38,902 nucleotides of DNA. It comes from Deltaproteobacteria bacterium TMED58 (GTDB lineage: Bacteria > Desulfobacterota_D > UBA1144). Numbering within the stretch: position 1 is the first letter of the stretch; every line of letters begins with the position of its first letter. This document shows, one piece after another, positions 1 through 9,665 of this stretch. The notes beneath the pieces are model-generated. The model was not told the DNA's origin. It saw nothing but the letters and a program-made list of their open reading frames with translations, and did no database searches. The DNA is taken from NCBI GenBank assembly GCA_002167555.2, contig NHDL02000002.1, positions 1 to 38,902 on the forward strand, in the 5' to 3' direction. The position numbers were made by a program, and so were the translations under genes.

Positions 1-446
1 TCGCATACATCCAGGGAAAGTTTCTTGTCACCTCTAATAAATGCTTTAATTGATTGATTAACCATTTTCGATGCACCGTATCCCATTTTGGTTAATTCAG
101 ATAAATCATTTATTGGAGGATGATCTAAAAGAGTAATGGACTTTTTAGCTATATTAACTGCATGATCACCAATTCTTTCAAGATCTTTAGTTATATGCAT
201 TGCCATTGTAATAAATCTTAAGTCTTCAGTGAGAGGTTGAAATAGGGCAAGAATTTCAATTGCTTTATCATCCAATTGAATTTCACAGTTATTAACTTCT
301 TCTTCATTAATCAAAACTGTTTTAGCTATATCAGCATCTCTTTCTTGTAGCGATTTAATAGCTAAGTTCACGTTCTCTTCAGCAAGGGTGGCCATTTTGA
401 CCAAATTATTTCTTAAAAGCTCAAGTTCTGATATTAATTCTGACAT
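1..446 (-). CDS. phoU: PhoU, phosphate-transport regulator (3' end cut by window edge)
   Basis: The reading frame starts at ATG 444-446 behind a strong AAGGAGG site at about 453-459 and runs off the left edge after 148 codons. The family is usually about 215-240 residues, so the C-terminal third is missing. The translation begins MSELISELELLRNNLV and contains the PhoU-type helical stretch ITKDLERIGDHAVNIA, whose acidic/aromatic pattern is the metal-binding signature of the first three-helix bundle. PhoU links the Pst transporter to the PhoR kinase and represses the Pho regulon when phosphate is plentiful. It is the last gene of the pst operon here, 20 bases after pstB. Function is assigned from family motifs and operon position. 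Confidence 0.93.
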   Translation of the reverse strand, partial: MSELISELELLRNNLVKMATLAEENVNLAIKSLQERDADIAKTVLINEEEVNNCEIQLDDKAIEILALFQPLTEDLRFITMAMHITKDLERIGDHAVNIAKKSITLLDHPPINDLSELTKMGYGASKMVNQSIKAFIRGDKKLSLDVC

Positions 447-466
447 TTTAATTCCTCCTTGTAATT

Positions 467-1222
467 TTAACCGAATCTTCCACTTATGTAATCATTTGTT
501 TGTTGCTTACCTGGATTCAAAAAAATCTTTTTTGTTTCGTCATACTCTATTAGGTCTCCTAAAAAAAGGAACGCAGTATAATCTGAAACTCTCGAAGCTT
601 GTTGCATATTATGGGTTACGATTACAATAGTAAAATCATCTTTTAGGGTTGTTATAAGCTCTTCAATTTTTGCTGTAGCAACAGGATCTAAAGCAGAACA
701 TGGCTCATCCATAAGTAAAACAGTAGGTTCTATTGCAATAGCTCGAGCAATACATAGTCTTTGTTGTTGTCCGCCGGAGAGTCCAAAAGCAGAATCATTA
801 AGTCTATTTTTAACTTCTTCCCATAAAGCTGCCTGTTTCAAACTTTCTTCAACGACATGGTCAATCTTACCTTTATTTTTTTCTCCACCAATTTTGAGTC
901 CATAAGCAATATTTTCATAAATACTCATTGGAAAAGGATTAGATTTTTGAAAAACCATTCCAACATTTCGTCTTAATGTCGTTACATCATATCCAGTGGA
1001 GTTAATATCAATTCCATCTATCTTAATTTCTCCATCCATTGTAACAGAATCAATTAGATCGTTTAGTCTGTTAATGCACCTTAATAAAGTTGATTTTCCG
1101 CACCCTGAAGGCCCTATAAATGCAGTAACTTGTTTCTCTTTAATATCTAAAGAAATATCATTTAAAGCCTTAGAGTTACCATAAGATAAATTTAGGTTTC
1201 TGATTTCTATTCCTTTGCTCAT
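467..1222 (-). CDS. pstB: PstB, phosphate ABC transporter ATPase
   Basis: This 251-residue cytoplasmic ATPase energises phosphate import through PstC/PstA. All ABC motifs are present: Walker [10 protein letters not shown] (37-45), Q-loop Q92, signature LSGGQQQR (148-155), Walker B VLLMDEP (168-174, catalytic Glu173) and switch His204. The segment [16 protein letters not shown] around 94-109 is typical of PstB rather than other ABC ATPases. Length matches the family (about 250-260). It lies 10 bases downstream of pstA and 20 upstream of phoU in the pstSCAB-phoU operon, so it is expected to be under PhoB control from the pstS promoter. Confidence 0.97.
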
Positions 1223-1232
1223 TTTATATCCC

Positions 1233-2816
1233 CTATCCTTTATGTTTTAATTTTAGTCTGTTTCTAATAAGAATAGCACTAGAATTCAATACTATGACGA
1301 TTAATATTAATAAAAGTGCCGTTGAAAATACCATAGGTAATGCAGCTTCGGAGTTAGGAGATTGAAATCCAACATCATAAATATGAAATCCCAGATGCAT
1401 AAATTTTCTTTCTAAATGTAAATATGGAAAGTACCCATCTAAAGGCATAGAGGGAGCTAGCTTGACAACTCCTGTTATCATTAATGGGGCAACTTCACCT
1501 GTGGCTCTAGATATTGCTAAAATAAGCCCTGTTAGTATTCCAGGTAAAGATGTTGGTATTATAATATTTCTTAATGTTTCCCACTTAGTCGCACCTAATG
1601 CTAGCGAACCATCTCTTATGCCTTTTGAAACTGCATTTAAACTTTCTTCTGTTGCAACTATAACAACTGGGACAGTAAGAAGTGCAAGAGTTAAAGATGC
1701 CCATAATATTCCACCTGTTCCATAAGTTGGTGATGGAAGATTGTCTTGATAAAATAAGGTATCAATCGATCCACCTATCCCATAGATAAAAAATCCTAAG
1801 CCAAATACCCCGAATACAATAGAAGGAACCCCAGCAAGGTTATTTACACATATTCTAATTAAAGCAACAGTTTTTCCTTGTTTTGCATATTCATTTAAAT
1901 ATACTGCAGCGATAACCCCTAAGGGCAGTACAGCAATACTCATTATTAAAACCATCAAGATGGTTCCAAAAATCGCAGGGAACACCCCACCTTCAGTATT
2001 TGATTCTCTTGGTTTGTCTGATAAAAATTCCCATATTTTGGATAGATAAAGACTTATTTTGCCCCTAAGTGTCAGTTCATTTGGTAGATTAAATCTTATA
2101 ATATTTACCAAAGTTAAAAGTTTAGTTGCTCCTTCTATATCACTAACAACAAGCTTGGTCGAGTTAAGAATTTGAATATTTTCAAAAAGTTTTTTTTCTT
2201 CAATTTTATAACTGTTTAATAATTTAAGTTTCTTTTCATCAAGTTTAGTGATTTTATTTTCATTCAAATTCACTCTCGATAAAACTCTCTTTTCTTTTTC
2301 TAACTCACTAAGTTTGAAATTTATTTCACCTATTTTTTTATTAATTACATTAATTTTTTTTGCTATACTGCTCTTATCTTTTAAGGACGAGTTGATAAGA
2401 TTATAAAATTCATTTTTATTGTTTTTATTATATGTAATTTTTTTATCTTTATGTTCAAAGGACTTAGGATATCCATAAAAGGAACCCCATTCGTCTCTTT
2501 CTATATGAAGAATTTCTTTATCATAACTAATACTTTGAATTTCAGAATCTTTTATCCATCTAAAATCAACACCATAAAAATCTCTATTACCTGTTTTTAG
2601 TTGAACAGTTAAATCATTATTAAAGTTTATTTCCTTCTTCTTGATTTCTCCTATAATATAAGAATTATTTTTTAGTTGAACTAAGGCGACATCTTTTTGC
2701 CAAAAAGTTGCAAACCCATAGTACATAACTAGCCCAATAAGCCCTGAAACAAGAAGTACACTTAAGGCCATCATGCAACCTGTTAACCAAATATAAAAAG
2801 AACCGTTTTTTTTCAT
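1233..2816 (-). CDS. pstA: PstA, phosphate ABC transporter permease, long form
   Basis: The C-terminal half (about residues 275-525) is a standard PstA permease, with several membrane spans and the EAA-type loop [19 protein letters not shown] that contacts PstB. The N-terminal half is an extra module: a first membrane span at about 11-35, then about 230 mostly polar residues, with a Lys/Glu-rich predicted coiled coil at about 150-225. Short PstA proteins are about 280-300 residues; this one is 527. Long PstA forms with such an N-terminal region are known in gammaproteobacteria such as Pseudomonas and Vibrio, so this is a family variant, not a fusion artefact. The extra region is probably periplasmic (inference). 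The gene follows pstC after 3 bases. Confidence 0.93.
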
Positions 2817-2819
2817 AAT

Positions 2820-5048
2820 TTATAACTCAGCATACTTTTTCTTTAAGCGAATTCTAATAACTTCTGCAATAGAGTTTATAATGAATGTGAAGCAGAATAA
2901 TATGAAGGATGATAAAAATAATGTTCTGTATAGAGTACCGCCTACAGGTGCCTCTGGTATTTCAACGGCAATATTTGCAGATAAGGTTCTAAACCCATTA
3001 AAAATACTAAAATCCATAATAGGGGTATTTCCAGCAGCCATTAATACAATCATTGTTTCTCCTACCGCTCTTCCAATACCAATCATAACTGCACTAAAAA
3101 TTCCTGGGCTTGCACTAGGAAATACAATTTTTAATGCTGTCTGCCATTTTGTTGCTCCCAATGCTAGAGATCCCGAAATTAAATGTTCTGGTACATTTGA
3201 TAATGCATCTTCGGATATTGTAAAAATAATTGGAATTACTGCAAAACCCATTGCAATTCCTATTATTAAAGCATTTCTTTGATCGTATTGTATTTGGAAC
3301 GATTCATACATCCAGGCGTTAAAATCGGAATTAAAGAATATTGATTCAAGAGAGTTTCCTATAAAAAGTGAAAGTATAAAGACAATTATAATTAAAGGTG
3401 CTCCAATAATAAGGTAGTTCATTCCCTCTTTCTTAAAATTCACAAAATGTTTAACTCTTTCCCATATTTTCGGCATATAAATAGTCAATATTATCAGTAG
3501 AATCGGAAAGCAAGCGATTGGTAAAAGTAATTTATCAATTTTTGGTGCTAACCATAAGCCAGCAAGGAAACCAAGTACAACACTTGGTAGGGCAGCCATT
3601 ACCTCTATTATTGGCTTAATTACTCCTTTAAGCTTTGGATGCATAAATTGTGATACACATATTGCTGCTAGTATTGCTATCGGAATTGCAAAAATTATTG
3701 CATAAAATGCACCTTTTAAAGTACCAAAGATAAGTGGAATAAGGCTAAGTTTTGGTTCAAATTCATCTGAACCTGAAGAGGATTGCCAAATATATTCAGG
3801 TCTATCAAATCCTTCATACCATACTTTTGAAAATATAGTTTCAAAAGTTGTCTCCGGGTGCTTAATATCAAAGTTAAATCTATTTATTTTATTTTTATCC
3901 AATGTTAAAAGTGCTCGGTCTTTAGTTGCAAATGCAGTTTTTAAAAACCCATCATTGATTTTAAAACTTAACAATTCTTTTGATGACGTAGTTGAGTGGA
4001 TAAGGACATTCCCAGATTCATCTATGCTTGTTATCATTTTTTTAAGGTTTGCTTTATATAGTTTTACAATCTTGTTTGAATGCCCGATTAGCGGCCGTAC
4101 TTTAACTATATTATTTTGTGAATAGAATAAGACACTAAGAGAGCCATCTTCACCCCCAGCTACAATTGCTTGTCTACCGTTTAGCATTTCAATCTTAGTG
4201 ATAGGAGCATTTATTATTCTTCTCGAGTCTAAATAATCAATTTCATTTGCTATATCCCAATAGTGAATTCTTCCCTTATTTGATGATACAAAAATAATTT
4301 CTCCGTTGTAATAAATCCCTATGTCTGTTGGTATTGAATTTCCAAGATCAGATGTTATATCATATAATTTTGCAACTGCATTCTCGTCTTGATTGGAAGA
4401 AAATAGTTCATCTTCTTCATTACTGCTTGCTATTTTAAGCACTCTAATCCTTTTCCTTAAATCAATGGCAACAAAGGTTTGAGCCTCATCATTAGATATA
4501 AAATCAATATGTTTTACTGGACTATCACTTATTTGATAAGATTCAGAAAAAGTAATCTTTGGCTCTGTTATTCTATCTAGTTCATCAGTATATGAAGTCT
4601 TGTATAAAATTGTGCCAATAAATACTCTTCCTGTCGAGGTTCCAAAAATATATTTTTTTCCATTTTCCTTGGAAACAACTGAGGTTATTTCCTCATTATC
4701 TATAAGATTTAATTTAGCTTTTGAAATGAGTTTCTTGAAATTTATGTCATAGAAAACAATCTCACCATTTGATTGTATTATCGATAGTACATTATTGTAT
4801 TCATCACCAAAAAACTCAACAGTTTTTGATAATTCTATATCTTCAATTTTTTCATTATCTTTTGATATCAAAGAGTATTTTTTAATTAAGGGTAAAGCTT
4901 CTTTACCGATAAAAAAAATGATTAAAATAATTGAAAGAATAATAAAAAAGCCGCCGAGTTTGAAAACATACTCAGCGGCTTTATCTTTTATTTTTCTTTT
5001 ATTGAATGCAGTGTTTTCATTTAAACTTAAATTTTTTTTTTCGTTCAC
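2820..5048 (-). CDS. pstC: PstC, phosphate ABC transporter permease with large N-terminal domain
   Basis: The 742-residue protein has a first membrane span at about 30-50, an inserted region to about residue 415 made of repeating short beta-strand-like segments (WD40/beta-propeller-like, for example VFIGTILYK and IHYWDIANE), and then a PstC permease domain with the EAA-type loop [20 protein letters not shown]. Short PstC proteins are about 300 residues; long forms of this type occur in Pseudomonas and relatives. The insert most likely sits in the periplasm (inference). The start is GTG at 5046-5048, 18 bases after the pstS stop, with no good ribosome binding site. Codons about 23-34 form a terminator-like hairpin, listed separately. 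Annotation as PstC is secure from the permease half and the operon. Confidence 0.93.
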   Translation of the reverse strand: MNEKKNLSLNENTAFNKRKIKDKAAEYVFKLGGFFIILSIILIIFFIGKEALPLIKKYSLISKDNEKIEDIELSKTVEFFGDEYNNVLSIIQSNGEIVFYDINFKKLISKAKLNLIDNEEITSVVSKENGKKYIFGTSTGRVFIGTILYKTSYTDELDRITEPKITFSESYQISDSPVKHIDFISNDEAQTFVAIDLRKRIRVLKIASSNEEDELFSSNQDENAVAKLYDITSDLGNSIPTDIGIYYNGEIIFVSSNKGRIHYWDIANEIDYLDSRRIINAPITKIEMLNGRQAIVAGGEDGSLSVLFYSQNNIVKVRPLIGHSNKIVKLYKANLKKMITSIDESGNVLIHSTTSSKELLSFKINDGFLKTAFATKDRALLTLDKNKINRFNFDIKHPETTFETIFSKVWYEGFDRPEYIWQSSSGSDEFEPKLSLIPLIFGTLKGAFYAIIFAIPIAILAAICVSQFMHPKLKGVIKPIIEVMAALPSVVLGFLAGLWLAPKIDKLLLPIACFPILLIILTIYMPKIWERVKHFVNFKKEGMNYLIIGAPLIIIVFILSLFIGNSLESIFFNSDFNAWMYESFQIQYDQRNALIIGIAMGFAVIPIIFTISEDALSNVPEHLISGSLALGATKWQTALKIVFPSASPGIFSAVMIGIGRAVGETMIVLMAAGNTPIMDFSIFNGFRTLSANIAVEIPEAPVGGTLYRTLFLSSFILFCFTFIINSIAEVIRIRLKKKYAEL
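4944..4982 (-). terminator. Terminator-like hairpin inside the start of pstC (candidate attenuator)
   Basis: In the minus-strand transcript, 4982-4970 pairs with 4959-4947 in a 13-bp stem around a 10-base loop. The core is GCCGCTGAGT against ACTCGGCGGC with one G-U wobble. The run of six T (4949-4944) follows directly, as in an intrinsic terminator. The element is GC-rich in very AT-rich surroundings and lies at codons 23-34 of pstC, just after pstS. It would let pstS be made in excess of pstCAB, a role usually filled by an intergenic hairpin. Structure is seen; function is inferred. Confidence 0.65.
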
Positions 5049-5066
5049 TGCATAATTTCATAAACC

Positions 5067-6026
5067 CTAATTAAGTTGGCTTAATACACCATCAACTTGT
5101 GCTTTAGACAAGGGAATATATCCATCCTTTATAACAATTTCTTGACCTTCTTTGCTTAATGCAAAGTTGATAAATTCCTTGATTAATGGCTCAAGTTCAG
5201 TTCCTGGTTTTTGGTTAACATAAAACTGAAGAAATCTAGCTAAAGGATATTTTCCTTTATCGATTTGTGATGGAGTTGGATCTGAACAACCTTTTCCTTT
5301 CTTGTCTAAGGCAATAGCTTTAACACCAGATGTTAAATATCCAATACCACTATAACCAATAGCAGATATATCGTTGGCAATACCTTGAACAACAGCAGAT
5401 GAACCTGGCTGTTCTTTTACGGAATCCTTATAGTCTCCTTTACATAGAGCTTTCTTCTTAAAATAACCATATGTACCAGATGCGGAATTACGTCCGTATA
5501 CACTAAGCGGTTTGTATCTTAAATTCCCCTTAGCTCCTAATTGTCCCCAAACAACAATATCCTCTGGGCCTCCACATTTTCGTTTTTTTGAGAAAACTGC
5601 ATCTACTTGTTTAATTGACATACATTCTACTGGATTGTCTTTATTAACAAAAACAGCAAGAGCATCAACAGATGTTTTTATTCTTACTGGCTTGTAGCCA
5701 AAGGCGTCAACAAACTTTTTAAGCTCCTTTTCTTTCATTGCCCTGGACATTGGGCCAATATTACTAGTCCCTGAGATTAAGGCTGGTGGAGCAGTTCCAG
5801 ACCCTTTACCTTCAATTTGGCATTTTACGCTTGGGTATACTTTAGTAAAACCCTCGCACCATAATGCCATCATGTTATTCATAGTATCAGAACCAACACT
5901 TGAAATTTGACCACTTACTCCGCTAACTTTCTTATAGCTAGGGATTTTTGAATCCACTGATAAAGAAAATGCAGAAGCAGTGAAAAGAACAAAGAAAAGT
6001 ATGGTTCCTAAAAATTTATTTTGCAT
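5067..6026 (-). CDS. pstS: PstS, periplasmic phosphate-binding protein
   Basis: I start the gene at ATG 6024-6026, which has an AAGGAGG site just upstream (about 6034-6040) and opens directly with a signal peptide (MQNKFLGTILFFVLFTASAFS). The frame stays open for 37 more codons upstream, but those would run through the promoter. The 319-residue product is a phosphate-binding protein of the PBP-II type, with SSVGSDTMNNMM and GKGSGTAPPAL near the N-terminus, SASGTYGYF in the middle and AIGYSGIGYL later; these Ser/Thr/Gly loops bind phosphate. The mature part has six cysteines, which could form disulfides. It captures phosphate for PstCAB and is first in the operon, behind a Pho box. Confidence 0.95.
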   Translation of the reverse strand: MQNKFLGTILFFVLFTASAFSLSVDSKIPSYKKVSGVSGQISSVGSDTMNNMMALWCEGFTKVYPSVKCQIEGKGSGTAPPALISGTSNIGPMSRAMKEKELKKFVDAFGYKPVRIKTSVDALAVFVNKDNPVECMSIKQVDAVFSKKRKCGGPEDIVVWGQLGAKGNLRYKPLSVYGRNSASGTYGYFKKKALCKGDYKDSVKEQPGSSAVVQGIANDISAIGYSGIGYLTSGVKAIALDKKGKGCSDPTPSQIDKGKYPLARFLQFYVNQKPGTELEPLIKEFINFALSKEGQEIVIKDGYIPLSKAQVDGVLSQLN

Positions 6027-8309: not shown

Positions 8310-9665
8310 ATGAGAAAATTTTTAGTATTATTCTTTTTATTTGCATCTTTACTAATTGTTCCAGAATCATTTAGTAAAGAGGTTGCATCATCAAATATAG
8401 ATGGCGATTCAACCACCCAGAAACTTACTAATACATTTGGTACTGACTTAACAAAGAAGTCCAAAGATATTAAATTAAAGTATAAAGCTGGGAAAGGATT
8501 AGAGTTTAAAGGCGGAGACGCTTTTAAATTAAAAATTGGCGGTAGAATGCAGTTCAGATTTGATAGCGCTGATAAGAACCAAGAAAAAAGAGGTTCTACA
8601 AGTTCTGATGGTTCTGAGGGTGTAAGTCATGACTTTCAAACAAGAAGATTTCAGTTAGCTTTTTCAGGTTATGCATATAGCCCAAATATCTTTTATAAAT
8701 ATGTAATTTGTTCAGATAAAAACGGTACAGGATGTGCTGGTGCAGATGGCATAGGTATTGAAGATGCATATTTCGGATATAAAGCTGGAAAGGTTTTAAA
8801 AGTTACAGTTGGACAAATGAAGATTCCTCATACTTTAGAAGAGCAAACTTCATCAAGTAGCTTAACTTTTGTTGATAGATCTTCAAAGCATTTAACATTT
8901 GAAAGAGATCACGGTATCAAGTTGGAAGCAACAATGCCAAATAAGAAATTTAAAGTTATAGGTTTCTTAGGTGCTGGTCTAGGTGGTAATAATGCAAGAG
9001 GTTCTTCTCATGCTGATGTTTGGGATAAAATCTATGTAACAAGAGTTGAATTAACACCATTTGGTAAAATGAAATATGGTCAAGCTGATCTTAAGAAATC
9101 AGATAATATGAAACTTAGATTGGGTGCTTCTCAACTATGGTGGAACGGATTAAACGTTAATTATACTGGTTCTGCTTTTAAAGAAGAAGATGGTTCAACT
9201 GCTTTAGATCATGCTGGTAAGCTTGATGATAGAATTAAAGACATTGCTACAGCTTATAGTAAAAACGGAAAAACTCAGCTTACAGGTGTTACATATTTAG
9301 ATGTTACATCAAGAACTTATGATGCTGGATTTAAGTATAAAGGTCTTTCAGGTGAGTTTGAACATACAACATTAACTGGTGATGAATCAATCCTAGGTAA
9401 TGGTAAAGAAAGTTTAGACTGGACTAGAATCCAAGGTAACTATCATATAACTAATGGATGGGTTGCAGGATATAGATACGGTGTAAGAGATAATTCAGAC
9501 CAAACTAAAGACAAAATATTTGAGCATACATATCAAGTTTCTAAATATTTTGTTGGACACAATTTAAAAATAAATGCTGATTATGGCCACATCAATGAAG
9601 AACAGACAACAGGCGATGATAAGCAAACAAGAACATTTAGAATTCAAGCGCAGCTTAAATTCTAA
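8310..9665 (+). CDS. OprP/OprO-type phosphate-selective porin
   Basis: The 451-residue protein starts at ATG 8310, eight bases after a strong AGGAGG. It has a signal peptide (hydrophobic to about residue 19, likely cut near residue 22). The mature part reads as a beta-barrel of the Porin_O_P family: KIGGRMQFRFD, the segment DFQTRRFQLAFSGYAY, then VGQMKIPHTLEEQTSSSSLTFVDRS, and a last strand ending in Phe (RIQAQLKF), as outer-membrane insertion requires. Mature length is near that of Pseudomonas OprP. The upstream Pho box and the divergent phoBR genes strongly suggest a role in phosphate or polyphosphate uptake. Ion selectivity cannot be read from the sequence. Confidence 0.88.
   Translation: MRKFLVLFFLFASLLIVPESFSKEVASSNIDGDSTTQKLTNTFGTDLTKKSKDIKLKYKAGKGLEFKGGDAFKLKIGGRMQFRFDSADKNQEKRGSTSSDGSEGVSHDFQTRRFQLAFSGYAYSPNIFYKYVICSDKNGTGCAGADGIGIEDAYFGYKAGKVLKVTVGQMKIPHTLEEQTSSSSLTFVDRSSKHLTFERDHGIKLEATMPNKKFKVIGFLGAGLGGNNARGSSHADVWDKIYVTRVELTPFGKMKYGQADLKKSDNMKLRLGASQLWWNGLNVNYTGSAFKEEDGSTALDHAGKLDDRIKDIATAYSKNGKTQLTGVTYLDVTSRTYDAGFKYKGLSGEFEHTTLTGDESILGNGKESLDWTRIQGNYHITNGWVAGYRYGVRDNSDQTKDKIFEHTYQVSKYFVGHNLKINADYGHINEEQTTGDDKQTRTFRIQAQLKF

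Follow-up and report, generated by a model that had tools for sequence, protein, structure and literature searches.

The window analysed here, the whole 38,902-nucleotide stretch of DNA, carries on its minus strand an operon with the gene order phoB-like, phoR-like, pstS, pstC, pstA and pstB. The gene for the phosphate-binding protein, pstS, occupies 5067..6026 (Pfam PBP_like_2, E 3.6e-27) and is followed by pstC at 2820..5048 (BPD_transp_1, E 1.6e-15), whose annotated GTG start is uncertain, by the second permease gene pstA at 1233..2816 (BPD_transp_1, E 1.6e-13) and by the ATPase gene pstB at 467..1222 (ABC_tran, E 6.2e-34). The gap between the end of pstS (5067) and the GTG of pstC (5048) is 18 nt. 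The source assembly comprises 6 contigs and 1,011,758 bases (1.01 Mb) with 31% GC. Its 16S sequence shares about 78% identity with that of Escherichia coli across 65% of the segment compared, and a single scan of a genome collection yielded one distant hit.

At 742 aa the product of pstC is of unusual length, and its residues ~212-364 resemble a WD40 beta-propeller at a level under the Pfam cut-offs. Upstream of pstS, at about 6090-6055, lies CTTAACAATTTCTTAACAAAAC, which we take to resemble the direct repeats bound by PhoB/PhoP-type regulators. A phosphate-selective porin gene (8310-9665) is found in divergent orientation beyond phoB.

Within pstC, 66-102 nt into the gene, the minus strand from 4982 to 4947 forms a stem-loop, AAAGCCGCTGAGT-ATGTTTTCAA-ACTCGGCGGCTTT, with 13 bp including one G-U pair and a folding energy of -22.3 kcal/mol. 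The arms are GCCGCTGAG/CTCGGCGGC, and directly 3' of the GC-rich stem the second arm continues into TTTTTT at 4949-4944 (codons 34-35, TTT TTT, Phe-Phe). The original prediction of a 13-bp GC-rich minus-strand hairpin at 4944-4982, at codons 23-34 of pstC, was right. On its own, the segment folds to -28.8 kcal/mol, compared to a mean of -9.0 for dinucleotide shuffles (z = -8.2). The six U said to follow it directly are present as well, but three of these T also sit in outer A-U pairs with AAA, and the structure can be read as 13 bp followed by U3 or as 10 bp followed by U6.

To place this hairpin in its genome, both strands of the whole assembly were scanned for local hairpins with a T-rich tail. 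The pstC hairpin is the most stable of the 803 candidates, ahead of those at gene ends, and its D-score of 37.6, computed with a d'Aubenton-Carafa-type formula, ranks third among them; the other copies in its family, f1, score 41.6, 32.6 and 10.4. It is also the most stable start-of-gene hairpin (first 135 nt) among 829 genes. A mobile palindromic repeat was considered and rejected: the genome contains no second copy, even at 8 mismatches, and there is no insertion compared to the relatives.

We then held the protein fixed and drew codons according to genome usage, ignoring relatedness. Not one of 4000 synonymous recodings matches the hairpin of the window, and in the relatives the counts are 0/4000 (G009), 3/4000 (G006) and 20/4000 (G011, with its one N set to T). 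The arms of the stem use rare codons, namely GCC (11% of Ala), GGC twice (13% of Gly) and CTC (4% of Leu). The U-run, on the other hand, argues only weakly that termination has been selected for, because it encodes Phe-Phe in a genome where TTT accounts for 81% of Phe codons.

Fourteen genomes of family f1 were examined for pstC. A pstC of the hairpin type is present in four of them, the window's genome, G006, G009 (two nearly identical copies) and G011, and the covariation sample consists of these five copies only; the three relatives belong to two other genera of the family. In the four genus-mates of the window's genome (G001-G004) neither pstS nor pstC has a recognisable copy; the distribution of the Pst system in this genus is thus uneven. 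All copies place the hairpin at identical codons with differing sequence, the arms being ACCGCCAAA/TTTGGCGGT in G009 and G011 and GCCGCTAAG/TTTGGCGGT in G006, and a T6-7 run abuts the stem in every copy (T6 followed by C in G011). Four of 15 pairs have changed on both sides, and 96% of the cells are paired compared to 39-61% with slid partners. The matched changes include amino-acid-altering ones (GAG/CTC to AAA/TTT). The compensatory change beyond the requirements of the protein that was proposed as a check is thus found, in these pairs and in the recoding result. Measured from the pstS stop, the end of the strongest hairpin lies 108-115 nt downstream in the relatives and 120 nt downstream in the window. 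Taken together, the recoding null, the hairpin at the same codons and the changes on both arms indicate that the element is an RNA structure under selection rather than a by-product of the Ala-Ala/Gly-Gly motif.

The GTG of pstC has no Shine-Dalgarno sequence, as had been noted from the window. The start call itself is uncertain, because it depends on the length of an A10 run just downstream of the GTG; with nine A instead of ten, pstC would share its frame with an ATG at ~5061. As it stands, this ATG (ATGAAATTATGCAGTGAACG, then A10) is out of frame and opens a 14-codon frame at 5061-5018, just past pstS. Homopolymers in this assembly vary in length or are of uncertain length, as an overlap of two contigs shows: positions 1-4385 of the window, the start of contig C3, match the end of contig C1 (55187-59572) over 4386 bases at 99.6% identity, the two differing by 16 substitutions and at a single T7/T8 run. 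Because of this overlap, C1 appears to hold a second, broken pstC; we rejected it as a pseudogene duplicate, and it stops short of the hairpin. All four pstC copies of G006, G009 and G011 start with ATG behind AAGGA or AAGG, a plausible Shine-Dalgarno sequence, and weak initiation is therefore not the conserved part of the arrangement.

A possible second, weaker stem lies over the start (5005..5053, minus strand), pairing ATGCAGTG (5053-5046, containing the GTG at 5048-5046) with CACTGCAT (codons 12-15, ~5012-5005). In the window the GTG falls inside this stem; in the relatives the stem lies directly next to the ATG, and its sequence differs in each. In the window 128 of 2000 synonymous recodings equal it; a start-proximal stem is present in all f1 copies, and since 3-6% of recodings do equally well, a marginal result, we regard it as suggestive only.

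The comparison was widened to 58 genomes of eight families, a set in which the class equals the phylum; extending the search to the whole phylum brought in no lineage from outside the class. In family f4, a stem of 12-15 bp (CTTCCTCCGG...CGGAGGAAG) is located at pstC codons ~10-26 in all 13 genomes examined (L005-L008, L010, L011, L015-L017, L019 and L021-L023), imperfectly in L010. Five of its 16 pairs have changes on both sides (12 such cells compared to 3.9 in shuffles), its synonymous z ranges from -2.7 to -7.0, and the strongest hairpin ends 91-131 nt past the pstS stop. The f4 stems have no proper U-run and obtain terminator scores of -16 to -48: a AUUUUAUU-like sequence follows in most of genus g10, and genera g9, g11 and g21 have no U-run. 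The f1 and f4 stems occupy neighbouring but different codons, which rules out their homology; what they share is position, not sequence.

In the f4 stem, CTTCCTCC, which resembles an anti-Shine-Dalgarno sequence, pairs with the Shine-Dalgarno-like GGAGGAAG, which encodes an Arg-Arg-Lys motif. Such pairing is present in f4 only and was discarded as a general explanation. In genus g9 an extra helix, ATACGGTC/GACCGTAT, links the intergenic region to codons past the stem.

A hairpin after pstS is present in most of the phylum. Family f5 has similar, weaker stems at a comparable site, clearest in L014. Where the pstS-pstC gap is short, the strongest hairpin is nearly always within pstC. Where it is at least 93 nt (f2, f6 and one f5 genome), the strongest hairpin is intergenic, mostly 49-69 nt past the pstS stop, in agreement with the original prediction that a signal normally found between the genes is hidden within pstC here. 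One f3 genome (L113) has it just past pstS, and in the f7 genome the strongest hairpin is in pstC despite a gap of 75 nt. By the recoding test, L030, L009, L018 and L013 have no clearly selected hairpin. Across lineages, which are related and not independent counts, the hairpin is mostly ~50-150 nt past the pstS stop. In Escherichia coli K-12, a hairpin lies in the 86 nt that separate pstS from pstC.

Since the position of the hairpin tracks the end of pstS rather than a fixed residue of PstC, and two families build it from different codons, its function appears to be directed towards pstS. We consider it probable, judging from sequence comparison, that the hairpin bounds the pstS message at its 3' end, that it is terminator-like in family f1 and that it lowers pstCAB output. 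This boundary would be set within the first codons of pstC because only 18 nt separate the two genes. The f1 stem, running into U6-7, would have the character of an intrinsic terminator, and some RNA polymerases would halt at ~4940-4946, releasing a message of pstS alone whose stable terminal stem would withstand 3'-5' exonucleases. The remaining polymerases would read through to pstC, pstA and pstB, and a single promoter would yield more PstS than permease. A ribosome already in pstC would open the stem and promote read-through; translation of pstC could in this way modulate the PstS:permease ratio. That transcription terminates here, that the stem protects the mRNA and that translation has an influence are inferences.

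This reading has to be weighed against three others. The hairpin could be a by-product of the protein, that is, of a DKAA...GGFF pattern written in self-complementary codons that end in TTT TTT. The DKxA...GG pattern is recognisable across much of the class, the codons for Ala-Ala and Gly-Gly are partly complementary, and the motif supplies some of the pairing 'without charge'; even so, the explanation is extremely improbable, as no recoding of the window reaches the observed stem, the stem is built from rare codons, and a change in one arm has its counterpart in the opposite arm even where the amino acid is altered. It is somewhat unlikely that the hairpin is protective only, in which case a full pstSCAB mRNA would be made, its pstCAB part would decay first, the stem would block 3'-5' exonucleases and the U-run would be incidental. 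The hairpin is indeed stable, selected and placed just past the end of pstS within the coding sequence of pstC, as a protective hairpin is; g9, g11 and g21 of f4 have the same kind of element with no U-run, the published E. coli cases lack U-runs at equal depth in the downstream gene, and TTT TTT for Phe-Phe is expected from codon usage. Against this, the f1 stem uses other codons than that of f4, abuts T6-7 in every copy, and obtains terminator scores among the best of the genome.

In a translation-gated attenuator, pstCAB transcription would be coupled to the initiation rate of pstC, assisted by the second stem over the start. Ribosomes block intrinsic terminators (PMC5021804), the terminator is 66-102 nt into the gene, and the second stem contains the GTG of the window and abuts the ATG of relatives despite differing sequences. 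The reading is nevertheless quite improbable: the start of the relatives is good, the start-codon stem is marginal against the synonymous nulls, and no signal or sensing element was identified.

Returning to the 3' boundary of pstS, termination cannot be the function common to both families, since the f4 hairpin has no proper U-run. For the same reason, the ancestral role was more likely the definition or protection of the pstS mRNA 3' end than the sensing of translation. In f1, where U6-7 abuts the stem while published protective hairpins have no U-runs, partial intrinsic termination would be an added, family-specific step. Gating by pstC translation is possible, in that leading ribosomes prevent intrinsic termination (PMC5021804) and translation of pstC could thereby tune read-through. 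A bolder version, in which the f1 terminator evolved within the pstC frame under dual coding from a protective hairpin of the sister-family type, made pstCAB transcription conditional on pstC initiation and became an attenuator tuning the PstS:permease ratio, seems rather unlikely to us.

These observations suggest that in small genomes with scant intergenic space a control hairpin shifts into the next gene, at the cost of rare codons. That different families build such a hairpin from different pstC codons at a similar distance from the pstS stop points to a general need for a 3' boundary of pstS and offers a natural comparison of protective hairpins, which lack a U-run, and terminator-like ones, which have it.

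Previous work in E. coli has demonstrated that, in operons with a stabilised first gene, 76% of stable 3' ends follow a hairpin, that 17 of 26 such hairpins lie 107 +/- 56 nt into the coding sequence of the downstream gene, and that every ABC operon found has the gene for its substrate-binding subunit stabilised; these protective hairpins have no U-runs, and pst is not mentioned (Dar & Sorek 2018, PMC5927463). The pstC hairpin resembles these cases in lying ~100 nt into the downstream gene, behind an ABC substrate-binding subunit, and in being conserved in relatives. The f4 genera g9, g11 and g21 share with them the lack of a U-run, whereas the f1 stem leads into U6-7 and has the score of an intrinsic terminator. 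As in the REP-type hairpins of malE-malF and E. coli pstS-pstC, which are thought to favour the binding protein, the element comes just past the gene for the binding protein, ahead of the permease; those are intergenic, while here the hairpin occupies codons 23-34 of the permease gene and encodes protein as well. It also resembles the terminators within reading frames that are relieved by ribosomes (PMC5021804; E. coli 3'-end maps, PMC7815308), in which a hairpin with a U-run likewise lies in a translated frame or upstream of one; in all f1 copies a GC-rich stem runs directly into the U-run. In those systems a close ribosome prevents termination, and both termination and its dependence on translation have been measured, whereas for the pstC hairpin both are only inferred. 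By its sequence features, then, the pstC element belongs to a known kind, the hairpins that mark the 3' end of a binding-protein gene from within the next coding sequence, and differs from them in its terminator character.
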